64,000 nucleotides of DNA, taken from NCBI GenBank assembly GCA_902588925.1, contig CACIRB010000003.1:1-64000 (forward strand), given 5' to 3'. The DNA comes from an uncultured Pelagibacteraceae bacterium. GTDB taxonomy: Bacteria > Pseudomonadota > Alphaproteobacteria > Pelagibacterales > Pelagibacteraceae. Positions within the stretch are counted from its first letter, which is position 1. Each line of letters opens with the position of its first letter. This document shows, piece by piece, positions 1,771 to 64,000 of this stretch. The position numbers and the translations under genes were made by a program. The notes beneath the pieces were generated by a model, which was not told where the DNA came from, did no database searches, and saw only the letters and a list, made by a program, of their open reading frames with translations.

Positions 1771-2751
1771 TTAAATTACTCCTAGTTTTTTCATAAGAGC
1801 TGTCATTTCTTCAGTTTGTTTTTCTAAGAATTCAACAAACTTACCTTCTGGGTTATAAATATTAACCCAAGCGTTTCTTGCTCTTACCGCTTCCCACTCT
1901 GGTGTTTTTTGAACATCTCCAAGCTTTTTAGCAAGAGCTGATCTTTCAGATTCACTCATACCTGGAGGGCCAAAGAAACCTCTCCAGTTAACGAATTGCA
2001 CATCATAACCTTGCTCTTTAAGAGTTGGTGCATCTGGTGCATCAGAAACTCTTGAAGGAGCAGTAATACCAATGATTGTTACTTGGTCTCTTGCACCCAT
2101 CAATTCACCTAAACCAGTTGAAATGATTTGAGTTTCTCCAGATAAAAGTCCAGCTAACGCTTTTCCACCAGCATCATATGGAATGTATTGAACAGCATTT
2201 GGATCTGCACCTGCAGCCTGGAATGCTAAAGCACCAATTAAATGGTCCATACTTCCTCTTACTGATCCACCAGCCATTTTAACTGAGCTTGGATCTTTTT
2301 TATATGCCTCAACTACATCTTTAAAGTTTTTGTAAGGTGAATTTTTTGCAACTGCGATAGCACCGTAGTCACCAATTACACCTGCAATCGGCACAACATC
2401 TTTATAAGATAAAGTTCCACTACCTTTTACATAACCTTCGTGCCTAGTAATTGATCTTAGTACCAATGGTGTAGATTGAACTAAAATTGTGTTGGCAGGT
2501 TTAGTATTAATCATATAAGCAAGCGCTTTACCACCACCACCACCTGACATATTTTCAAATGATGCACTTTTTAACAAACCAGCTTTTGTTAAAGCCTCTC
2601 CAGTACCTCTAGCAGTTCCATCCCAACCACCACCAGCACCACCACCGATTACAAAGTGCAATTTTTCATGCGCTACTGAGCTAGTAGTTGTTGCTGAGAA
2701 TAATAGGATTGCTGAAAATAATACTGAAACTATTTTTTTTAAGTTTTTCAT
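1771..2751 (-). CDS. tctC: Tripartite tricarboxylate transporter substrate-binding protein TctC
   Basis: This 326-residue secreted protein starts with a signal peptide (MKNLKKIVSVLFSAILLFSA, cleavage probably after SSVAHA-like residues near 27). The mature part opens with KLHFVIGGGAGGGWDGTARG, matching the Bug/TctC phosphate-loop-like start that contacts the carboxylate ligand. The IPYDAGGKALAGLLSGE motif near 190-210 is also typical of the family. Bug proteins bind carboxylates such as citrate, tartrate or aromatic acids, and the ligand cannot be read from sequence. It is the first gene of the tctCBA operon, with a TTATTTATCCCTCTC (plus-strand) ribosome-site region just upstream. A perfect 10-bp inverted repeat sits in the promoter region. 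Confidence 0.93.
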   Translation of the reverse strand: MKNLKKIVSVLFSAILLFSATTTSSVAHEKLHFVIGGGAGGGWDGTARGTGEALTKAGLLKSASFENMSGGGGGKALAYMINTKPANTILVQSTPLVLRSITRHEGYVKGSGTLSYKDVVPIAGVIGDYGAIAVAKNSPYKNFKDVVEAYKKDPSSVKMAGGSVRGSMDHLIGALAFQAAGADPNAVQYIPYDAGGKALAGLLSGETQIISTGLGELMGARDQVTIIGITAPSRVSDAPDAPTLKEQGYDVQFVNWRGFFGPPGMSESERSALAKKLGDVQKTPEWEAVRARNAWVNIYNPEGKFVEFLEKQTEEMTALMKKLGVI

Positions 2752-2782
2752 TATTTATCCCTCTCTAATTTAAAAATGGTAG

Positions 2783-2820
2783 TTAATTATAGTCTTGGTC
2801 TTTATGCAACCTATAATTAA
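2783..2820. promoter_or_regulatory. Perfect 10-bp inverted repeat between tctC and the AbrB-like gene
   Basis: TTAATTATAG at 2783-2792 and its exact complement CTATAATTAA at 2811-2820 are separated by 18 bases. The element lies 32-69 bases upstream of the tctC start inside a 214-base divergent intergenic region. Its place and spacing fit a regulator operator or an untranslated-leader hairpin. The sequence is A+T-rich in a very A+T-rich genome, so chance is a real alternative. The rest of the intergenic region is T- and A-tract sequence without further clear structure. Confidence 0.4.
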
Positions 2821-2965
2821 GTAACACAACTTTTAATTGAAAATGTTTTTTTATAAAATTTATCAAAAAAAACTAATAGTTTTATTTTTTAACAAATTGA
2901 ATTTTCACTTTTTTTACTAAAATATTTTTTCTTATCTTTTATATAGTTGATGGTAGAAGCTTTAA

Positions 2966-4042
2966 ATGATTAAAAATCAAATCAGATTTTATCTTGAAAA
3001 TGCAAAACAAATTTTTTCAATTAAATTTATTTCTGTTCTAATAATTTCTATTCCTAGTGCAATTGTTGCTTATTACTTCAATATTCCTTTAGCTTGGTTT
3101 TTAGGTCCAATGATTATCACATCAATTGCTGCTTTATCAGGACTTAAAATAATTATGCCTAAAATTGTATTAAGCTTTATTCTAATAATTCTAGGTTTGC
3201 ATATTGGAAATTACATAGATCAAAATCTATTTAACCAAATGATAAATTGGATTTGGACATCTCTAATTATGCTAATTTATATAATTATTTGTATTTTAGT
3301 TGTTGCTAAGTACCTTCAAAAATTTGCAAATTATGAGGAAAAAGCCTCTATATTTTCTGCTGCTCCAGGTGCTCTAGGCCCATTAATGATTTTAGCAGAA
3401 AATGAAAAAACTGATCTATCTCAAGTTGCGACTTCCCATCTAATTAGATTAATCATTATAATAACTGTAATTCCACTTATTATAGTAAATAATACTGGAA
3501 ATGATGTTTTATTAAATGATGAATTTAATTACTTGGCTCAAAATCATTTAAATTTAATTTTACTCATTATTGGATCTTTATTTTTTATTTTTGTTTTTGA
3601 GAAAATTAGAATTCCTGCGGCCTTACTCTCAGGAACACTATTTGCGAGTGGCTTGTTACAGATTACAGATTTAGCCACTTATAGATTACCAAATGAAACA
3701 GTAAATTTTTGTCTATTAATTCTTGGTTCCTCTGTTGGATGTAGATTTGCAGAAAAAACAGTAAAAGAGATTGCGAATAATTCTCTTCACAGTATTGTAG
3801 CAACAACTATCTTGGTAATATTAGGATTAATTACAGCTTACGTTGCAACTTTTTTTGTTGATACAAATATTTTAACTTTAATATTATCTTTTAGTCCTGG
3901 TGGAATTTATGAAGTAGCGGTTATAGCAATTGCTTTTGATCTAGATCCAGATTTTGTTGCTTTCCATCATATTATCAGATTACTTTTTATTCTTTTTACA
4001 GTTCCTATATTTTTAAGATTTCTAGAAAATGTTAAGAGATAA
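2966..4042 (+). CDS. AbrB-family (COG3180) integral membrane protein
   Basis: This 358-residue protein has about ten hydrophobic helices. It shows the internal duplication of the AbrB membrane family: an LGPMI block (WFLGPMIITSIAALSG) near residue 47, a similar LSGTLFASGLLQITDL block near 220, and paired GLHIGNYID and LGSSVGCRFAEK segments. SPGGIYEVAVIAIAFDLDPDFVAFHHIIRLL near the C-terminus is the best-conserved family stretch. Despite the E. coli AbrB name (regulator of aidB expression), these are probably transporters with unknown substrates. It is divergent from tctC and overlaps the next, convergent gene by 11 bases. Confidence 0.8.
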   Translation: MIKNQIRFYLENAKQIFSIKFISVLIISIPSAIVAYYFNIPLAWFLGPMIITSIAALSGLKIIMPKIVLSFILIILGLHIGNYIDQNLFNQMINWIWTSLIMLIYIIICILVVAKYLQKFANYEEKASIFSAAPGALGPLMILAENEKTDLSQVATSHLIRLIIIITVIPLIIVNNTGNDVLLNDEFNYLAQNHLNLILLIIGSLFFIFVFEKIRIPAALLSGTLFASGLLQITDLATYRLPNETVNFCLLILGSSVGCRFAEKTVKEIANNSLHSIVATTILVILGLITAYVATFFVDTNILTLILSFSPGGIYEVAVIAIAFDLDPDFVAFHHIIRLLFILFTVPIFLRFLENVKR

Positions 4043-4973
4043 TTTCAGAAACTTTTTCAAAAACTTTTTCTGCAGATAGTTTAGATAATTCAGGGGCTTG
4101 TATTGCTTTAAAATTTTCTCTTTCAATACTAACTTTAAACGGAGTTGTATGTGAGCCAAATAAAGTAATGCCTTTTGATCCTAAGTGCGCCGTTATATGA
4201 GCAGGTCCAGTATCATTTGCGATAACAAATGAACTATCTTTTATTAATCCAGATAATTGTGAAATATCTAAAGCTTTACCTTTATCTAAAACACATAAAG
4301 CATTTATATTTTTTGCATCTTCAATTTCATCTGGTCCAGGTGCAGTAACCACTTTAAATTTATTTTCAAATTTTTGATTAATCATAGTAATTAAATCATT
4401 ATAGTAAGGCCATTTCTTTGAAGTTAAATGGGGTGAGCAAAAAGGAAAAAGTATTATGTATTTATCTAGTTCATAACTTTTTTTTATTTCTGAAATATCA
4501 ACTGCACTCCATGAAAAATCTGGTTTCATTGTATGATTGGTATTAATTCCCGAAGATTTTAACTGGTGATCAAATCTTGAAAGAACAGAGTCTTTATCAA
4601 AATCTTTTTTAGTTGTTCCTTCTGGTAGAGTTGTTTCTGTTGAACACCAGATAGTTTTATCAGATTTAGGAAATAATATATTTTTGTAAAATGATGTTCT
4701 GCTAGAATTTTGAAGATCATAAACTTTTGAGAAATTATATTTTTTAATCTCTCTCATTAGTAAATATAAATAAATTAAGTTAATCTTTGATAATCTCTTG
4801 TCTAGAATAACATTTGAAATATGTGGGTTTTTTTTAAATAATTCGTAATAAGGTTTAGAGGTTAATAAGTAAATTTGATCTTCTTTATGATTTTCAGAAA
4901 TATCTTGAATTGCTCCGCATGCTTGAGCTATATCGCCTAAAGATCCATGTTTAATAATTAAAATATTAGACAT
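4032..4973 (-). CDS. Glycosyltransferase family 9 (heptosyltransferase-like)
   Basis: This 313-residue protein opens with NILIIKHGSLGDIAQACGAI, the GT9 N-terminal motif. Its C-terminal donor-site region contains VIANDTGPAHITAHLGSKGITLFGSH, which matches the heptosyltransferase D-(S/T)-GP-xH-x-A-(A/S) signature. GT9 enzymes add heptose or related sugars to the lipopolysaccharide core in the cytoplasm. The neighbouring DUF6165 gene, divergent with only a 32-base gap, is often found in LPS glycosylation loci, which supports an envelope-glycan role. Donor and acceptor are unknown. Confidence 0.87.
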   Translation of the reverse strand: MSNILIIKHGSLGDIAQACGAIQDISENHKEDQIYLLTSKPYYELFKKNPHISNVILDKRLSKINLIYLYLLMREIKKYNFSKVYDLQNSSRTSFYKNILFPKSDKTIWCSTETTLPEGTTKKDFDKDSVLSRFDHQLKSSGINTNHTMKPDFSWSAVDISEIKKSYELDKYIILFPFCSPHLTSKKWPYYNDLITMINQKFENKFKVVTAPGPDEIEDAKNINALCVLDKGKALDISQLSGLIKDSSFVIANDTGPAHITAHLGSKGITLFGSHTTPFKVSIERENFKAIQAPELSKLSAEKVFEKVSEIIS

Positions 4974-5005
4974 AATTCTAACAACTTAACATAGTATAAA
5001 GTTTT

Positions 5006-5395
5006 ATGAATAAAATTATAGTCGAGGTTTCTGTCGGAGAGCTTTTAGACAAGATTTCAATATTAGAAATTAAACAAGATAAAATTAAAGACTCAGAAAA
5101 ATTAAGTTTTATAAACAATGAACACTCTATTCTTAAAAGTCAATTTGAAAAAAATGTTAAGTCTGATGAGAAGCTTGAAAAATTGTTTCAAGACTTAAAA
5201 GATATAAATGCTAAACTTTGGGTTATTGAAGATGAAAAAAGAGATTGTGAAAAAAATAAAGATTTTGGAGAAAAATTCATAAAACTTTCTAGAGATGTTC
5301 ATTTTTTAAATGATGCTCGGGCAAAAATAAAATTAGAAGTTAATAACCATACTGGTTCAGCTATTAAAGAGATTAAAGAATATACTAGTTACTAA
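5006..5395 (+). CDS. DUF6165 family small protein
   Basis: This 129-residue soluble protein begins with MNKIIVEVSVGELLDKISIL, the distinctive start of DUF6165 proteins. The remainder is charged and helical (SILEIKQDKIKDSEKL, KSDEKLEKLFQDLKDINAKLW), suggesting a coiled coil. There is no signal peptide or membrane segment. Members of this family commonly sit beside heptosyltransferase or other LPS glycosyltransferase genes, as here, but no biochemical function is established as far as I know. It shares a very short divergent promoter region with the GT9 gene and overlaps the following convergent gene by 11 bases. Confidence 0.75.
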   Translation: MNKIIVEVSVGELLDKISILEIKQDKIKDSEKLSFINNEHSILKSQFEKNVKSDEKLEKLFQDLKDINAKLWVIEDEKRDCEKNKDFGEKFIKLSRDVHFLNDARAKIKLEVNNHTGSAIKEIKEYTSY

Positions 5396-6173
5396 AAACT
5401 TTCGGAAACCAATCCTCTCTCATCTGATCACCTGATTTTAAATTAATTCCATCAAATGGTGGCGATGTTGGACCACCTCTTTCAACAAAAGCAATATCAT
5501 CACCTATAAATCTCATTGAAAATGCTCTACGAGATTGAGAACTTTGATTTCCTGTGGAACCATGAACAGTTTTAAAATTAAATAAAACCGCATCACCTAA
5601 TTTTAAATCAGGAACTAATATATCTCTTTCAAATTCTTCTATTTTAGGAAGATTCATAAATGAGCTATCATCTTGATACCATGATTGATCATTTGACCAT
5701 TTGGTTGGTCTTAAAAGCTTTTGCCATTTGTGCGATCCTAAAATTAGTTTAAGATTATTTTCTTTATTCACTTCATCTAATGGTATCCAAAAACTGCCTG
5801 TATCATTTCCATCAACACAGTAATATGGCATATCTTGATGCCAGGGTGTTTCTTTGTTTGTTCCTGGATCTTTAACAAAAAGATGATCATGAAAAATTTG
5901 TATAGATTTTGAATTTGTAGCCTCAGCAACTATTTGGGCAGCAGGAGAATTGAACATACAATCTTTAAATTCATTTATTCTCTTCCAATTACAATAGTCT
6001 TCAAAAAACCTTCCCTCATTTTCACTCACATTTTCTCTTCCATGTTGACTTGGGTTGTCTAAAACTTTTTGAAAACCATTTCTTAATGGTTCAATCCAAT
6101 CTTTAAATGCATCTTTAATAATTATTGCACCATAATTTTGATAATCATTAATTTGTTTTTGAGATAGATACAT
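5385..6173 (-). CDS. Phytanoyl-CoA dioxygenase (PhyH) family Fe(II)/2-oxoglutarate oxygenase
   Basis: This 262-residue protein fits the PhyH fold. The iron ligands are visible as HQD in TPWHQDMPYYC (His112, Asp114) and His204 in KTVHGSTGN. Arg215 or Arg216 in SQSRRAFSMRF is the expected 2-oxoglutarate anchor. The N-terminal YQNYGAIIIKDAF segment is typical of the family. It would hydroxylate a small organic substrate using O2 and 2-oxoglutarate. It lies two bases downstream of the ABC permease gene in the same direction, so it may act on the imported compound, but that is inference. The substrate is unknown. Confidence 0.85.
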   Translation of the reverse strand: MYLSQKQINDYQNYGAIIIKDAFKDWIEPLRNGFQKVLDNPSQHGRENVSENEGRFFEDYCNWKRINEFKDCMFNSPAAQIVAEATNSKSIQIFHDHLFVKDPGTNKETPWHQDMPYYCVDGNDTGSFWIPLDEVNKENNLKLILGSHKWQKLLRPTKWSNDQSWYQDDSSFMNLPKIEEFERDILVPDLKLGDAVLFNFKTVHGSTGNQSSQSRRAFSMRFIGDDIAFVERGGPTSPPFDGINLKSGDQMREDWFPKVFSN

Positions 6174-6175
6174 TT

Positions 6176-6853
6176 TTATTGTTGGAAACTATACTTTTTT
6201 TCTAAATACTTAATCACGTTGTGAATGATAAAGGTCATAAACAAATATATACCACCAGCTACAATAAATACTTCGATAGGCTTAAATGTTGTTGATATGA
6301 TATATTTTGCTACACCAGTTAAGTCCATTAGTGTTACGGTACTTGCTAATGAAGTACCTTTCATCATTAAAATTATTTCATTTCCATATGCAGGGAGTGA
6401 TTGTCTAATCGCGATAGGTATTTGAATTTTATAGAATATAATTCTATTTGAAATACCTAGACTTTTTCCAGCCTCAATAATTCCAGGTTTTATAGTTTGA
6501 AATGCTGATCTTAATATCTCAGACGTATATGCGCCTGTATTTAATGTAAAAGCAATAATTGCACACCAATAAGGTTCTTTTAAAACAACCCATAAAACTG
6601 TAGATCTTAAATATTCAATTTGTCCTAATCCAAAGTAAATAATAAAAATTTGAACTAATAATGGGGTGCCTCTGAAAACATAAGAGTATCCATAAGCAAA
6701 TTTGTTAATAAATATATTTTTATTTAATCGTAAAATTGCAAAAAATAATCCTAGAAATAATCCAAAAAATATAGAAGCTGATAAAAGTTTTAAGGTAATA
6801 ACAGTTGCTCCTAAAAGTTTTGGGAAACTAGTGATCATTAAATCAAAATCCAT
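6176..6853 (-). CDS. Polar-amino-acid ABC transporter permease (HisM/GlnP type)
   Basis: This 225-residue protein has five hydrophobic helices and the conserved binding-protein-dependent permease features RGTPLLVQIFIIYFGL, AYTSEILRSAFQTIKPGIIEAGKSLGIS and the EAA loop. The ALTFNTGAYTSEI-like segment (here TLNTGAYTSEI) identifies the His/Glu/Arg permease subfamily. It starts exactly at the base where the second permease gene ends, forming the heterodimeric channel with it. No ATPase gene is present in this operon, so the ATP-binding subunit must be encoded elsewhere or shared. Confidence 0.93.
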   Translation of the reverse strand: MDFDLMITSFPKLLGATVITLKLLSASIFFGLFLGLFFAILRLNKNIFINKFAYGYSYVFRGTPLLVQIFIIYFGLGQIEYLRSTVLWVVLKEPYWCAIIAFTLNTGAYTSEILRSAFQTIKPGIIEAGKSLGISNRIIFYKIQIPIAIRQSLPAYGNEIILMMKGTSLASTVTLMDLTGVAKYIISTTFKPIEVFIVAGGIYLFMTFIIHNVIKYLEKKYSFQQ

Positions 6854-7545
6854 TAATAACCCCTGGTATATTTAACTTCTAATTTATTAATAAACTTCAT
6901 GCTTATGTAAGTAAGCAATAAATATAAAACTGCTGCAAAAGAATAAAAAAATAATGGATCTCTTGTGGATCCCGCAGCAATATAGGATTGTCTCATAATT
7001 TCGACCAAACCAGTTACTGATATTAAAGAAGTGTCCTTTAAAGTAATTTGCCAAACATTACTTAAATTTGGAATCGCTAGTCTTAACATTTGAGGAAGGA
7101 TTATTTTATAGAATTGAACAAACTTACTGATGCCTAAGACTTTTGCAGCTTCAAACTGACCTTTGTCAATTGATTGAATGGCTCCTCTAAAAACCTCTGT
7201 TGAATAAGCCCCTGAAATTATTCCAATAGCAACAGCACCAGTAATAAATGCGTTTATTTCTATATATTCGTAATAACCAAATATTGATGCAACATACATT
7301 ATTGCACCACTCCCACCAAAAAAAAATAAATATATGACTAATAGTTCCGGAACACCTCTAATTACTGTGGTATAAAAATTTCCAACAAAGTTAAGGGTTT
7401 TGTATTTTGAAAGTTTTAGTGGAGTAAAAATTAAAGCAAAAAGAAAACCAACTAACATTGCTGTAACAGATACAGCAACTGTCATTAAGGTTGCGTAAAA
7501 TAACTCGTCACCCCAACCTGTTTTTCCAAATGCAAGAAGTTCCAT
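6853..7545 (-). CDS. Polar-amino-acid ABC transporter permease (HisQ type)
   Basis: This 230-residue protein has five predicted membrane helices. The family motifs RGVPELLVIYLFFFGG and ISGAYSTEVFRGAIQSIDKGQFEAAKVLGIS are both present. The ATG follows directly after the base of a stable hairpin (7549-7580), leaving no room for a Shine-Dalgarno sequence, so translation may depend on hairpin opening or on leaderless-like initiation. It would pair with the HisM-type permease and take substrate from the upstream binding protein. Confidence 0.93.
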   Translation of the reverse strand: MELLAFGKTGWGDELFYATLMTVAVSVTAMLVGFLFALIFTPLKLSKYKTLNFVGNFYTTVIRGVPELLVIYLFFFGGSGAIMYVASIFGYYEYIEINAFITGAVAIGIISGAYSTEVFRGAIQSIDKGQFEAAKVLGISKFVQFYKIILPQMLRLAIPNLSNVWQITLKDTSLISVTGLVEIMRQSYIAAGSTRDPLFFYSFAAVLYLLLTYISMKFINKLEVKYTRGY

Positions 7546-7548
7546 ATA

Positions 7549-7580
7549 GATTGGCGACTATATATTATAGCCGCCAAATC
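7549..7580 (-). promoter_or_regulatory. Intercistronic hairpin between binding-protein and permease genes
   Basis: On the minus strand GATTTGGCGGCTATA pairs with TATAGTCGCCAATC around a three-base loop, with one bulged T and one G-T pair. It begins nine bases after the binding-protein stop and ends three bases before the permease ATG. No T-tract follows. It therefore looks like an mRNA-stabilising or translation-limiting structure rather than a terminator. Confidence 0.6.
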
Positions 7581-7589
7581 CAAAATTAA

Positions 7590-8441
7590 TTACATAGAAG
7601 CGTCAAAACCAAAGTGTTTAATGGCAAGTTCGCTAATAATTCCTTTTTTTCTAGCTTTGTTAATAGCTTTGTTGAAATCTTTTAAGATTTTAGCGTCTCT
7701 TTTTCCGATTTCGCTATCACTAGCTTGTCTAATTCCAACACCAACACCATTTCCAAATGCACCACCAGAAAAAGTTGGTCCTACTAATACAACTGGTTTA
7801 CCAGATTTATCAGCATAGTCTGTAAATGCTACAGCCGCAGCAAGTGCAACATCACATCTTCCAGAAGTTAAATCTAAATTAACCTCATCTTGAGTTTTGT
7901 AAGTTCTAACATTTACACTTCCAACGTCACCAGACTCTAAAAAGTTTTGGTGAATTGTACCTGTTTGAGTACATACAGTTTTTCCAGCTAAAGCACCTGT
8001 TAAAGTTTTTAAAGCTTTTTTAACATCAGACCCGCCTAAAGATAAATTAATACCTTCTGGTGTATCCATACCTTCTAAGCTTGAACCTTTCATTACAGCA
8101 AGAGATGCAACTTCATCAGCATATCCTTGTGAGAAAGTAATTGTTTTCTTTCTTTCATCAGTAATAGACATACCAGCCATAATTGCATCAAATTTTCTCA
8201 TTACTAATGCGGGTATCATTCCATCCCAATCTTGCTCAACAATTGTACATTCGTACTTCATAATTTTGCAAAGCTCTTGGGCTAGCTCAACCTCAAAACC
8301 AATTAAATTGCCAGAAGCATCTTTTGAATTCCATGGAGGATAAGCACCTTCAGTTCCAATTTTAATTTTCTCAGCAGAAACATTTCCGATGATTAAAAAA
8401 GAAGCTAGAACTGTTAAAATAGTTTTTTTGAATATATTCAT
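7590..8441 (-). CDS. Polar-amino-acid ABC transporter periplasmic binding protein
   Basis: This 283-residue protein has a signal peptide (MNIFKKTILTVLASFLIIGN, cleavage after VSA) and a mature start KIKIGTEGAYPPWNSKDASG, the SBP_bac_3 lysine/arginine/ornithine-binding motif. The following GFEVELAQELCKIMKYEC and MIPALVMRKFDAIMAGMSIT blocks confirm the family. Cationic amino acids are the commonest ligands of close relatives. The operon lies just downstream of the polyamine/MTA cluster (57-base gap), which makes a polyamine or basic amino acid attractive, but the sequence alone does not decide it. Confidence 0.92.
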   Translation of the reverse strand: MNIFKKTILTVLASFLIIGNVSAEKIKIGTEGAYPPWNSKDASGNLIGFEVELAQELCKIMKYECTIVEQDWDGMIPALVMRKFDAIMAGMSITDERKKTITFSQGYADEVASLAVMKGSSLEGMDTPEGINLSLGGSDVKKALKTLTGALAGKTVCTQTGTIHQNFLESGDVGSVNVRTYKTQDEVNLDLTSGRCDVALAAAVAFTDYADKSGKPVVLVGPTFSGGAFGNGVGVGIRQASDSEIGKRDAKILKDFNKAINKARKKGIISELAIKHFGFDASM

Positions 8442-8498
8442 ATTTTCTCCTTTAATTGGAATAATTATTTCACAATTTTTAGAAATAAAAAAGAAAAA

Positions 8499-9539
8499 TT
8501 AATGATTTATTGAGGATGAAAAGTTCCAAGCACAATCAAAACTTGGTATGTAAACCCTCGATAATTTAGCATTCCCAAAATTTTGATTAAATACATTTAA
8601 CCAACTATCAACTTGTTTGGGTTTTTTATCCTGACTACCAACTTGAGCTGTGATTACCCCTTTTGGCTTTAATATTCTTACCAATGAGTCCATATTTTTT
8701 GCTGCTAGATCGATACAAAATTGATCATCATTTAGATCAACAAAAATATGATCGTACGTATCATCTGCAACTGATTTAATACTTTCAAATGCATCTCCCC
8801 ATACACATTTAACTGAATTTTTTTCTGTAGCTTTTTTTCCGATATCGCCAAGATGCTTATTACAAACATCTACAACTTCTGGATCTAACTCATACCAATC
8901 AATAAAATTAAAATTTTTAGAAATACATTCTCTTGCAACACCACCATCTCCACCTCCAATGATAGCCGCTCTTTCATTATCTTTGTTTAGATTTAAACCT
9001 GATCCAACAAAAGTTGAGCTATATAAATGTTCATCAGTCGCAGCAACTTGAATTTCACCATCTATAAATAGTGATTTTCCAAACTGCTCAAGATCTAAAA
9101 TTTCAATATGCTGACCAACTTTGGATTTAAAATCTTCTAAAACATCATTTACAACATATGATTTTTGCAAACCTGGAGAACTATAAATGTCGTGATAAAG
9201 TGATTTTGTATCCCTATTAAATTCTTTTTTAACAATTCTTGTATGTTCAAATTCTTTTTTAATTATATCAATTGCAACAGATGGACTTACTTTTCCGCAT
9301 GTAAAAAAATCAAAACTAATAATTCCTTTTTCAGGAAATGTATGAAAGCTGATATGACTTTCTGCTAAAAGAGCCAATATTGTAAAACCTTGTGGTTCAA
9401 ATTTATATTTAGAAATATTTAATATCGTTACTTTTGCAGCTTTTGCGATTTCTTGAATTACTTTTTCATAAACAGAAGGATCATATTCTTTTGTTGTTCC
9501 AATGATGTCTAGAGTTATGTGCTCTCCAACTTTAGTCAT
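8499..9539 (-). CDS. SpeD-SpeE fusion: S-adenosylmethionine decarboxylase-like + aminopropyltransferase-like
   Basis: This 346-residue protein joins two polyamine enzymes. Residues 1 to about 120 are a class-1b SpeD: GEHITLDIIG start, the self-processing Glu60-Ser61 in LLAESHISFHTFPE, His66, and Cys81 in FFTCG, all in register with known pyruvoyl decarboxylases. Residues from about 135 to 346 are a spermidine-synthase domain with GGGDGGVARE and the ribose-binding acidic pair in WYELDPEVV. The synthase active site is unusual. The canonical YHE segment is YSS (EHLYSSTFVG) and the D-(S/C)-x-DP loop is DLNDDQF. Expected products are decarboxylated SAM and a polyamine plus MTA. SpeD homologues with arginine or ornithine decarboxylase activity are known, so the decarboxylase substrate is not certain. 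It is the last gene of the MTA operon (TAATG junction with the aldolase). Confidence 0.85.
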   Translation of the reverse strand: MTKVGEHITLDIIGTTKEYDPSVYEKVIQEIAKAAKVTILNISKYKFEPQGFTILALLAESHISFHTFPEKGIISFDFFTCGKVSPSVAIDIIKKEFEHTRIVKKEFNRDTKSLYHDIYSSPGLQKSYVVNDVLEDFKSKVGQHIEILDLEQFGKSLFIDGEIQVAATDEHLYSSTFVGSGLNLNKDNERAAIIGGGDGGVARECISKNFNFIDWYELDPEVVDVCNKHLGDIGKKATEKNSVKCVWGDAFESIKSVADDTYDHIFVDLNDDQFCIDLAAKNMDSLVRILKPKGVITAQVGSQDKKPKQVDSWLNVFNQNFGNAKLSRVYIPSFDCAWNFSSSINH

Positions 9540-10174
9540 TAGCTATCCTTTTTATAATTTTTAGCTTTGGATAAAACTTTTTTCATTTCTTTTATAGAAA
9601 GAATTTTAGGCTTACCCAATTTCAGGCTCGTTATATACTGAAGGGATATATTTTCAACCTCTTCAGCTAACTCAAAAGCTTTGGACAAACTATCTTCAAA
9701 TGCAATCTGACCGTGATTTGCAATTAAGCAAGCTTTTCTTCCTTTTAGAGCTCTCAAAATATTTTTAGATAATTCTCTCGTTCCAAAAGTAGCATATTTT
9801 GCACATTTAATGTCATGGCCACCAGCCATTGCAACCATATAATGAAAAGAAGGGATCCCTTTATTGTGAGTAGATACAGCGGTTGCATTTGTTGAATGAG
9901 CATGAACAATCGCCTTAGCTTCTTTCTTATTTTTATAAATATCTTGATGAAATTTCCATTCTGAGGATGGAGTTCCTTTTTTTTTATCAAATTCACCGTC
10001 TAATGAAACGAAAACTATATCTTTAATTTTTAAAGTTGAATATTTTTTTCCAGAAGGAGTAATTAGAAAACCATTTTTATATCTAATTGATATATTTCCC
10101 GATCTTAAAGCTGATAATCTTTTTGTATTCAACATTTTTGAATATCGAATAATTTCAGAGCTTAAATTTTTCAT
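9539..10174 (-). CDS. Class II aldolase, FucA-like; candidate methylthioribulose-1-phosphate aldolase
   Basis: This 211-residue protein aligns along its whole length with L-fuculose-1-phosphate aldolase. GNISIRYKNGFLITPSG carries the phosphate-binding residues, PSSEWKFH places catalytic Glu72, VHAHS gives zinc ligands His91 and His93, and IANHG gives His154. These are each one residue offset from E. coli FucA Glu73, His92, His94 and His155. The ATFGTREL block is also shared. MtnB dehydratases belong to the same superfamily, but the SSEWxFH block fits the aldolase better. Next to mtnA and mtnP it most likely cleaves 5-methylthioribulose-1-phosphate (and perhaps 5-deoxyribulose-1-phosphate) to DHAP and a two-carbon aldehyde, as in the described DHAP shunt. 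It overlaps mtnA by ATGA. Confidence 0.82.
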   Translation of the reverse strand: MKNLSSEIIRYSKMLNTKRLSALRSGNISIRYKNGFLITPSGKKYSTLKIKDIVFVSLDGEFDKKKGTPSSEWKFHQDIYKNKKEAKAIVHAHSTNATAVSTHNKGIPSFHYMVAMAGGHDIKCAKYATFGTRELSKNILRALKGRKACLIANHGQIAFEDSLSKAFELAEEVENISLQYITSLKLGKPKILSIKEMKKVLSKAKNYKKDS

Positions 10175-53450: not shown

Positions 53451-53464
53451 AATAACTTAATTTT

Positions 53465-55930
53465 TTAATTTACGTTTGTTTTTAAGTAGCTCAATATTGA
53501 ATTACTTCCACTTAGCATAGCCTCAAAGAATTCAAAAGACTCAGCATCATCAATTTCTGAAAAATAATCGTGAATACATTGTTGTTCATTTACTAATTTT
53601 TCATTATCAGTTTCACTTATAAAACTCATCCAGCCCCATTGATTTAGTAGTCTGGTACCACATTTACCTTGAATATTTTCACGATGTCGAAATAATGGCA
53701 TAATGGCATCTTGTCCTGGTTCCTCTCCTATATAAACCACAAGCATTTGATCATCAGTCTCAAACTTTCTTTTATAAACCATTGCCTCATCCAATATAAT
53801 TTTTTTATTTTTTGTATTGGTTAAATTTCCATTGATAATTGATTTATATAATTGATCCTCTTTTTGTCGCTTTGGTTTAATGGGATTTGTATTTGATGTG
53901 AAATTTACATCATTTGATTTAAGCTTAAATGTTCCATTTTCAAAATTGAAGATTGAAAAATTTTCTTCTTTCGAGTCTAAAATTGATTCATTCAATTCTA
54001 ATTTAGCTATTTGCTTTTCAGGATTTTTCAAATAATCTAAAATAGAATTTGTACCAGCCAAAATAGTCTCAAACAATTCCAAGGACTCAACGTCATCTAT
54101 TTCTGCAAAATAGTCGTGAATACATTGTTGGATTTTTGCAAAATTTAAATTGCTAGTCTCACTTACAAAATTCATCCAACCATATTCAATAAAATTGAAC
54201 CCATTGAATAATGTGTTACATTTTTCTTTAATACTTTGACTGTGTCTAAATAGAGGTAAAATAGCATCTTCATTTGAACTCTCTCCTATATAAATAGATA
54301 AAATCTGATGGTTCATCTCTTCAAATGAATCCTGGTAAACCAATGCTTCATTAAATTTAATTTTTTTATTTTCCTCAGTTATCAAATTTCCCTTAATAAA
54401 AGCTTTGTATAATTCATGATCATTTTGTTTTTTTGGCTTAATAGGATTTGTGATCGATGCAAATTTTACATCATTTGATTTAAGTTCATATCTTCCACTT
54501 GCATTTTTATTAAAAATTTTAAATTCAGAAAATCTATATTTTTTTTCATAATCCTTTGGTTTTTCAGATAATTTTTTTATCCAAAGGTTCTCTCCTTCTG
54601 ACATTATATTTGCATTAAAAATTTCAAAAGCTTGAATATGATAGTATAAGCTTAGCCACGGGTATACTTTAATTTCATGTGGTGTAAATTTTCCATTTAA
54701 CCACTCTGGATGTTTTTCTGAAACAAATCTTATAGACCAGTTTATAAAATCATCTTTATTTCTTATCCAATTTTCTTCTAGAGCCTCTTCGTATCCCTTT
54801 TTACCACCATGTTCATATACGGTATGCTTTTGATGAGTCTTAAAAGGTTTTCTTCCACAACTCGCTGCACCTATTGCTTTTTTTGCGATATGCTTTGAAA
54901 TAGTAATATCTTCATATTGTTTAAAAAGTACCTCATAAGCATCCGATATTGTTTTTCCATGTCTCGTTTTGTAATCTAATAAATCAAAGCTAGCTAATCT
55001 CAAAAGCTCAACATTCATGGAGAATAGTTTGCTTGTATCCCAAGTATAGCCTAAGGCTTTACATCCTTTTGCAGATAACGGGACGAAGAAACCTTTATCA
55101 TTAGTCATACTTAAAACATAATCTAAATCCCATAAACCTTTGGCCCAAAGTTCTTTGTCTTGTGACACAATTGCTAAAGCCAGTTCTGCAGAGGCAAACC
55201 GAAGTCTAACAGTTCCACAATTATTAACTTTGTGTTTTTTTCCACTCAATTTCATTGGATTATCAATTGGACAAAGTTTTGTTCTACTACGATTGCCATC
55301 TCTATCAAGTCGTTCGATCATCGCTTTATTTTTAAAATAGTTTTGGATAGTTTTATGCTGATCTTCTGTGTAATTAAACTGATCATAATTAACTGCATAA
55401 AATGTTACTAGAGGAGAAAGAACTCCCCATAACTGATAATCTCTAGGATTAAAATTATCTTTGCCTGAATTTTCATAAACCCATTTGTCTTTATCTGCAT
55501 TTGCTATATTAAAAATTATTTTCTCATGTAATTTTATTCCGCCTTCAAAATCTATAAGTGCATAATCCCTTAAAGCACCTAAACATCTTTTAAATACTTC
55601 CTCCTGAATTTTTGGAGTGGTTGGTACTTTGAATTCAATAATAACGCTTGTACAAAAGTCTTTAGTTAATTTTTTTCCATCTAATTCATCTTTCCAAACA
55701 TAAGAAGTGTAATGCCAGTTATTAGCCATTACATTTGTTCGATAATATTTGTATCTTTCATAATCTTTTATAATTCTATTTATTTTGGGAAGTGGAACTT
55801 TGAGAAGCTCACTAGATTTTACATGATCATCCATCATCTCTTTTGCTTCATCTGCATAAATCACCTCAGATGCAAGTGAATTTATGAAATTAAATAAAAA
55901 TAAAAAAAAGATGATTAAAAATTTAAACAC
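53465..55930 (-). CDS. Large secreted alginate-lyase-like protein with two C-terminal repeats
   Basis: This 821-residue protein starts with a signal peptide (MFKFLIIFFLFLFNFINSLA). Residues about 60-450 form a helical region with features of the alginate-lyase-like alpha/alpha-toroid: KVNNCGTVRLRFASAELALA near 235 with NN-x-G in place of AlgL NNHSYW, DLDYVLSMTNDKGFFVPLSAKGCKALGYTWDTSKLFSMNVELLRLASFD near 270-315, and YPWLSLYYHIQAFEIF near 424. Two tandem repeats of about 150 residues follow (479-635 and 667-817), each with YELKSNDV/FKLKSNDV, NPIKPK, ILPLFRH/IMPLFRH, W(M)(N/S)F(V/I)SET and QQCIHDYF. They may bind glycans or a surface. The catalytic assignment is tentative because the usual tyrosine/histidine cannot be placed with certainty. 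Confidence 0.65.
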   Translation of the reverse strand: MFKFLIIFFLFLFNFINSLASEVIYADEAKEMMDDHVKSSELLKVPLPKINRIIKDYERYKYYRTNVMANNWHYTSYVWKDELDGKKLTKDFCTSVIIEFKVPTTPKIQEEVFKRCLGALRDYALIDFEGGIKLHEKIIFNIANADKDKWVYENSGKDNFNPRDYQLWGVLSPLVTFYAVNYDQFNYTEDQHKTIQNYFKNKAMIERLDRDGNRSRTKLCPIDNPMKLSGKKHKVNNCGTVRLRFASAELALAIVSQDKELWAKGLWDLDYVLSMTNDKGFFVPLSAKGCKALGYTWDTSKLFSMNVELLRLASFDLLDYKTRHGKTISDAYEVLFKQYEDITISKHIAKKAIGAASCGRKPFKTHQKHTVYEHGGKKGYEEALEENWIRNKDDFINWSIRFVSEKHPEWLNGKFTPHEIKVYPWLSLYYHIQAFEIFNANIMSEGENLWIKKLSEKPKDYEKKYRFSEFKIFNKNASGRYELKSNDVKFASITNPIKPKKQNDHELYKAFIKGNLITEENKKIKFNEALVYQDSFEEMNHQILSIYIGESSNEDAILPLFRHSQSIKEKCNTLFNGFNFIEYGWMNFVSETSNLNFAKIQQCIHDYFAEIDDVESLELFETILAGTNSILDYLKNPEKQIAKLELNESILDSKEENFSIFNFENGTFKLKSNDVNFTSNTNPIKPKRQKEDQLYKSIINGNLTNTKNKKIILDEAMVYKRKFETDDQMLVVYIGEEPGQDAIMPLFRHRENIQGKCGTRLLNQWGWMSFISETDNEKLVNEQQCIHDYFSEIDDAESFEFFEAMLSGSNSILSYLKTNVN

Positions 55931-55990
55931 TACTTGATTATAAGCATATTCTTCAAATATGTAATGTTATTATGTTAAATTTTTGTTAAT

Positions 55991-62855: not shown

Positions 62856-63741
62856 TACTTAATATAAATTTTTTTTGTAAAACTCCTTTTGCGTTTGTTT
62901 TTACACTAAAAAAGAATCCTGAATATCTAAATTTTCGCAAATCAGCTTTGTCCATTCCTTTTGTTGCAGTTGAAACATACAGTTCTTGATTATTCTTTCC
63001 CCCAAATGCACAATTAGTTATGTTTTTAGCTGGAAATTGAATTCTATGAATTAATTTTGCTCTACTATTAAATACTGAGACACATGCCCCACGAAAATGT
63101 GCAACCCATAAATTTTTATTTTTATCTAAAGTCATTCCGTCTGGAACTCCTTCCTCAGGTGTTAACTTTTTAAATATTTTTTTACTAATTATTTTATTAT
63201 TTTTATTTATCTTAATTTTATAGATAGTTTTTTTAGGACTATCAGTGTGGTAAAAGTTATGTTCATCAATAAATGCTGGACCATTTGTAATTCTATAATT
63301 TTTATCAACTCTAGTTAATTTTAGATTTTTATCTAATTTATACAAAGATCCTTTTTCAATTTTTCTCTCTAAATTATCCATAGTACCAAACCAAAGATTT
63401 CCAGCAGGATCAGTTTTACCATCGTTTATTCTATTTAACTTTATTTTTGGCTCTATAGGTATTGATTTTAAAACTTTTTTTGATTTTAAATTTTGAATTC
63501 TTAATTCACCTTGCAATCCTAAAATAAATATATGATATTTTATATGAGCAATGAAACCTACTTCTTTATTAACTTTAAAGATTTTCTTTTTTTTATTTTT
63601 GATATTTAAAGAACAAATTTTTTTTTTCTTTATATCTACAAAATAAATACTGTTATGCTCTTTAACCCAAAGTGTTCCTTCACCTAAAGTACATCTTATT
63701 TTCCAAATTGCTTTTGGTTCTGTAGTTTTAATTTTATTCAT
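62830..63741 (-). CDS. SMP-30/gluconolactonase family lactonase
   Basis: This 303-residue beta-propeller has the family metal-site pieces: RCTLGEGTLWV (Glu), NDGKTDPAGNLWFGTMDN (Asn and Asp), NGPAFIDEHNFYHTDS and EGVPDGMTLDKNKNLWVAHFRGACV. ITNCAFGGKNNQELYVSTA is the last conserved blade. It hydrolyses sugar-acid lactones. The overlapping upstream enolase-superfamily gene (partial here) often makes or uses sugar acids, so the pair fits a sugar-acid catabolic operon. Confidence 0.91.
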   Translation of the reverse strand: MNKIKTTEPKAIWKIRCTLGEGTLWVKEHNSIYFVDIKKKKICSLNIKNKKKKIFKVNKEVGFIAHIKYHIFILGLQGELRIQNLKSKKVLKSIPIEPKIKLNRINDGKTDPAGNLWFGTMDNLERKIEKGSLYKLDKNLKLTRVDKNYRITNGPAFIDEHNFYHTDSPKKTIYKIKINKNNKIISKKIFKKLTPEEGVPDGMTLDKNKNLWVAHFRGACVSVFNSRAKLIHRIQFPAKNITNCAFGGKNNQELYVSTATKGMDKADLRKFRYSGFFFSVKTNAKGVLQKKFILSNEEKRSLL

Positions 63742-64000
63742 TTACCTCAAACTCTTTAATAAAGTCTTCATTAGGGTTTATACCAATACCTACATTGTCT
63801 GTCACTGATGCAAATCCATTATTATTTTTGACCTGATCTAAAATTGAAAAATTCTCTTTTGGTAAATCTGTAATAAATATATTTTTCTCTGTCGTATCAA
63901 ACTCTAGCATAGATTTTGTAGGGAATAGTCCCCCTGGCATGTCGGGTTGTGCAGTCAATAAATGAAGATTTACCGCTATACTTACAGCAGATCCCCAAAC
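63734..64000 (-). CDS. Mandelate racemase/enolase-superfamily enzyme, C-terminal fragment (runs off window end)
   Basis: The minus strand is open from base 64000 to the stop at 63734, 88 residues in all. The sequence VWGSAVSIAVNLHLLTAQPD and MPGGLFPTKSMLEFDTTEKN, with FASVTDNVGIGINPNEDFIKEF, matches the C-terminal end of mandelate-racemase-type sugar-acid dehydratases or cycloisomerases. The barrel with its metal ligands is outside the window. The TTG at 63958 in the ORF track is internal and not a start. It overlaps the lactonase gene by eight bases. Confidence 0.83.
   Translation of the reverse strand, partial: VWGSAVSIAVNLHLLTAQPDMPGGLFPTKSMLEFDTTEKNIFITDLPKENFSILDQVKNNNGFASVTDNVGIGINPNEDFIKEFEVNE

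Follow-up and report, generated by a model that had tools for sequence, protein, structure and literature searches.

What does a large, probably exported relative of the alginate lyases do in a Pelagibacteraceae bacterium? SAR11 bacteria are usually pictured as consumers of small dissolved molecules. The protein in question has 821 residues and is encoded in the window, the whole 64,000-nucleotide stretch of DNA analyzed here, which belongs to a fragmentary host genome (852 kb, 62% complete). Residues are numbered with the GTG start counted as M1. The gene and the parts of its product are as follows.

53465 to 55930, minus strand: gene of the 821-residue protein, GTG start (open reading frame list, orthologues, dN/dS of ~0.2)
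55868 to 55930, minus strand: signal peptide, residues 1-21, probably of the signal peptidase I type (sequence, alignment)
54539 to 55867, minus strand: PL5-related helical domain, residues 22-464 (PF05426, PDB profile search, hhalign, Foldseek)
54020 to 54532, minus strand: C-terminal repeat R1, residues 467-637, with two invariant cysteines (repeat alignment)
53468 to 53965, minus strand: C-terminal repeat R2, residues 656-821, with two invariant cysteines (repeat alignment)

The open reading frame is a genuine gene and not a chance one, on the basis of its orthologues and their dN/dS. It has the length originally described, and its 821 codons run from the GTG start without an internal stop. 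Intact orthologues occur in about 24 other Pelagibacteraceae genomes, most of them at 69-88% identity. A genome-contig scan identified Pelagibacteraceae single-cell genomes as the nearest named relatives of the window genome and returned 20 loci for the protein, nearly all full length, in the same identity range and all within this family. The dN/dS between orthologues, ~0.2 overall and somewhat higher (0.3-0.5) in R1, indicates that the protein is under purifying selection. It is encoded by a rare accessory gene, present in 6 of 397 Pelagibacteraceae genomes and in one of 14 genera; the whole-genome search located it in 2 of 61 relatives, the window's own genome counted. A class-wide search returned only the window's gene and one match, L029, and among 399 genomes of the phylum just one weak partial match (E 0.007) was found. 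Weak BLAST matches in L035 and L036 were rejected, being confined to the signal peptides of secreted proteins that are otherwise unrelated, and matches to a metallo-beta-lactamase and a myoglobin were discarded as noise.

The protein is probably exported and disulphide-bonded. Its N-terminus is predicted, both from the sequence and from the orthologue alignment, to be a Sec-type signal peptide, with a hydrophobic stretch followed by LAS/E (...ILA/E in the orthologues). The orthologues begin MKKFLIFLLFSIFTF (MKKFLIF...), and their starts and signal peptides coincide with those of the window's protein. All ten cysteines are invariant among the aligned orthologues, which would fit disulphides formed outside the cytoplasm. 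The signal peptide had been part of the original prediction, and so had two C-terminal repeats with shared LFRH, SET and QQCIHDYF motifs; these motifs are indeed present in R1 and R2, and R1 rows are 53-60% identical to the window's R2 in the alignment. The repeats have no match in Pfam, in the PDB or elsewhere in 289 genomes of the class. They may serve to anchor the protein on a glycan or the cell surface.

The one relative found by the class-wide search, L029 (genome G707), is a secreted protein of 621 residues from another alphaproteobacterial family. It matches the N-terminal domain at E 6e-30 and carries the active-site Arg and Tyr, but is only 26% identical, and its C-terminal domain has no detectable relation to R1 and R2. 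A by-eye likeness of that domain to the repeats was dismissed, since the repeat profile gave E 0.11, at an unrelated place. Within the family of L029, this type of gene is found in one more genome and as a truncated remnant in a third. The remnant, of 86 residues, lies between the same neighbors (L034:1124-1384, genome G748), so this type of gene, too, is gained and lost in that family.

The N-terminal domain is homologous to the PL5 alginate lyases, on the strength of four tests that agree, each of them weak alone. The PF05426 (Alginate_lyase) profile scores 19.8 bits with the full-length protein and 21.4 bits with the domain, both under the Pfam gathering cut-off of 22.2 bits; among seven further orthologues, L015 reaches 19.2 bits and the other six give no match at E 0.1. 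A profile search of PDB sequences returned three matches only, all of them to alginate lyase A1-III, at E 1.6. In hhalign, a profile of the domain that included L029 aligned with 14 PL5-type proteins at a probability of 93.8% (E 1.7e-7, 289 columns), and other subsets gave 2-88%. AlphaFold2, provided with 15 and 20 near-identical rows, produced toroid-like models with a pLDDT of 42.8-43.9, too low for active-site geometry. With the model of pLDDT 42.8, 19 of the 21 best Foldseek matches are PL5 entries, one a design (best E 2.8e-3, TM-scores 0.3-0.4), and PL5 entries again rank first with a full-length model, which is likewise poor. The helical AlgL-like domain of the original prediction is thus upheld, and a PL5-derived fold is very probable. 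Its catalytic site is half kept, as the following positions illustrate.

55046 to 55069, minus strand: K288 to Y295, aligned to Arg239 and Tyr246 of A1-III at the same seven-residue spacing (alignments)
55208 to 55210, minus strand: V241, the commonest partner of the PL5 catalytic His (alignment runs)
55217 to 55225, minus strand: N236-N237-C238, of which C238 is invariant and the Asn residues are not

In the PL5 enzyme Smlt1473, the key residues are N167, H168, R215 and Y222; Tyr222 is able to act as the base, Arg215 aids Asn167 in neutralizing the carboxylate, and H168A is an inactive mutant (PMC8511899). The Arg and the Tyr of PL5 are seven residues apart. In all alignment runs with the Pelagibacter family, Y295 falls on the catalytic Tyr, and the neutralizing Arg is replaced by K288 (Arg in L029); both residues are invariant across about 20 Pelagibacter orthologues. 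The catalytic His is absent from the family in every alignment tried. Its position is taken by V241 in most runs, by Lys or Pro in a few, and by Asn or Arg in L029. The Asn position falls, depending on the run, on T240 or on the unconserved N236 or N237, and under no alignment register do the orthologues present the Asn-His pair. An altered AlgL-like NN motif had been proposed at residues 236-237. The catalytic site is altered, as that proposal held, but the NN itself is untrustworthy as an active-site motif, because its Asn residues vary (GN in L005, L015 and L019, NT in L029).

The protein resembles the PL5 enzymes A1-III, AlgL, Smlt1473 and PanPL (PF05426) in its helical, probably toroid-type domain, its catalytic Tyr, the basic residue seven positions ahead of it and the signal peptide. 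It differs from them in having no Asn-His pair, a Lys instead of the Arg, a score below the Pfam cut-off, a larger N-terminal domain with six invariant cysteines and two additional C-terminal repeats. PL5 membership is not claimed, given the missing Asn-His pair, the replaced Arg and the Pfam score under the cut-off; at most, the domain would function as a modified form that binds or cleaves polyuronates. A more canonical type occurs in the same genus: PF05426 proteins of ~396 residues (L037-L051), also secreted and PL5-like, match A1-III at 9e-11 with phmmer. In contrast to the 821-residue protein, they retain HNH, Arg and Tyr, score above the Pfam cut-off and are devoid of the C-terminal repeats.

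The loss of the His need not end catalysis. Tyr is the base in one proposed PL5 route, and the PL35 glycosaminoglycan lyases, toroid enzymes with an Asn where PL5 has this His, obtain their base from a different residue, His401, supplied from elsewhere (PMC12088678). The PL35 comparison (Asn-Asn for His-Asn) follows the published description, according to which enzymes that lack the His can be active on other uronates. In the 821-residue family, the NN is unconserved. A non-catalytic protein with a merely borrowed PL5 fold, serving as a glycan-binding or structural component of the envelope, would account for the missing Asn-His pair and for the change of Arg to Lys. A weak PF05426 match encoded next to an orthologue (L007:6493-7623, also in L011) likewise has no Asn-His pair by eye. 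However, the invariance of Y295 and K288, together with the Tyr and Arg of a relative at 26% identity, goes beyond the needs of binding, and we consider such a pseudoenzyme a possible but not the favored outcome. An active lyase has close to an even prospect, glycan binding only is a tentative option, and a function that is neither of these is rather unlikely. With an alginate-lyase-type fold but no catalytic His, the protein is likely to bind acidic sugar chains and may still be able to cut them.

Would such a protein feed the cell? The original prediction suggested an alginate or uronate lyase supplying a sugar-acid pathway, an idea that draws on the PL5-type domain, the secretion signal and two genes located 7-8 kb away, one for an SGL-family lactonase and the other for the C-terminus of an enolase-superfamily protein (63734-64000, identified by eye). 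Both genes sit in a low-divergence block common to the window and L003, and the fetched flanks of the other orthologue loci do not contain them; a functional partnership with the 821-residue protein is not supported. The usual uronate route ends with KDPG aldolase. This enzyme (PF01081) was detected neither in seven genomes that carry the gene nor in one that carries L029 (five of the eight are at least 90% complete), against 8 of 14 control genomes. Feeding on alginate is unlikely for this reason, and with the catalytic His missing as well, a nutritional lyase is very improbable. The original alternative, in which a protein of the envelope or periplasm has borrowed the fold, stays a live option; the uronate catabolism proposed with it is not borne out.

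The genomic setting of the gene varies from strain to strain.

53451 to 55990, no strand assigned: cassette inserted between the genes for an SMR transporter and a DUF952 protein; the site is filled in the window and L003, empty in G028 (L083)

In the window and in L003, the gene is flanked by the SMR transporter gene and the DUF952 gene; in the relative G028, these two are adjacent, about 330 bp apart, without such a gene between them. Synonymous divergence between the window and L003 is 0.06 for the PEP carboxylase gene, 0.44 for DUF952 and 0.45-0.89 for the SMR genes, while R1 alone has a dS of 0. This climb beside a nearly identical R1 points to frequent recombination at the locus. R1 and its linker (54020-54532 in the window, L003:9351-9863) are almost identical, with the N-terminal domain and R2 at a dS of 0.25-0.47, and the near-identity suggests that gene conversion took place recently. 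Adjoining the cassette are two tandem genes for SMR-family transporters (PF00893, 52781-53450), which have the peak dS against L003. The other carriers have the gene at other sites, in many cases within a variable region close to genes identified by eye as tuf, nusG and rplK. The gene is a strain-to-strain cassette in recombining variable loci.

In seven other carriers, a secreted lyase-like gene lies immediately upstream of the orthologue; in five of them, this neighbor encodes a PF14099 lyase-family protein. Such arrangements do not count as independent events, since they were possibly inherited. The neighbor in L007 and L011 (at 6493-7623 in each) is a secreted protein of 377 residues with a sub-threshold PF05426 match, in which the Arg-to-Tyr stretch is kept by eye. 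In three further loci, the orthologue is preceded on its own strand, at a distance of 7-89 bp, by a gene for a ComA-type sulfolactate synthase (PF02679; L016:7157-7951, L018:7075-7869, L019:7157-7951), which adjoins an apparent tripartite transporter cluster.

The best explanation of this locus is an exported, PL5-derived accessory protein that acts on acidic glycans of the envelope or exopolymer and is mobile between strains, a reading that, taken whole, we regard as evenly poised. The toroid cleft would hold an acidic (uronic-acid) glycan, whose carboxylate would pair with K288 and perhaps also with the invariant R242. Proton shuttling would fall to Y295, so that slow or altered beta-elimination may be possible without the PL5 His, and the repeats would keep the protein in place. 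Most likely, envelope or exopolymer glycans would be modified or bound at the cell surface, rather than alginate being fed upon, with the gene traveling between strains as a cassette. PL5 homology, the invariant Tyr and Lys at PL5 spacing, purifying selection, the variable locus and the lyase-like neighbors favor this explanation. It is weakened by the unconserved Asn and His positions, the inactivity of H168A, the marginal PL5 scores and the low pLDDT.

Polysaccharide lyases had been thought uncommon in SAR11-like genomes, which is wrong for Pelagibacter. In a sample of 119 genomes with a completeness of at least 85%, from which that of the window was left out, PF14099 is found above its cut-off in 57 and PF05426 in 21, with up to five copies. 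One genome contains an uninterrupted run of seven genes, all on one strand, whose products are secreted and lyase-like (L089, G805:C5:71000-80918, at 1993-9618), several with overlapping stop and start codons or short junctions. Two proteins of this array from different families (512 residues, PF05426; 396 residues, PF14099) have a common C-terminal stretch, ending ENGCYVHYSSQVAFGG and NNGCYVHYSSQVAFGG, which is perhaps an anchoring domain. Multi-gene lyase arrays and accessory, mosaic, recombining loci are what would be expected if such secreted proteins trimmed the capsule of the cell itself or of a competitor as a weapon or shield, altering recognition by phages and grazers. Against this, no homologue of the 821-residue protein was found in the phage, plasmid and viral-contig sets searched, and this role is improbable.

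Secreted lyase-family genes are present in about half of the Pelagibacter genomes sampled, and some genomes have divergent ones like that of the 821-residue protein. A literature search of partial coverage found no paper describing such proteins in SAR11. Their presence raises the question of whether SAR11 cuts or binds acidic polysaccharides, and whose. If these proteins act on the cell's own surface, recognition by phages and grazers could change; if they act on outside polymers, SAR11 would join the polymer-processing bacteria. More speculatively, and with little likelihood at present, Pelagibacter may draw on an exchangeable repertoire of secreted lyase-fold proteins, in which canonical members occur beside others with a rebuilt active site and which remodels its own or rival acidic glycans; the 821-residue protein would then be a lyase with a His-free PL5 site and a new type of anchoring repeat. 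Such a repertoire would constitute a hidden layer of surface-glycan variation in SAR11, beyond the known O-antigen island.
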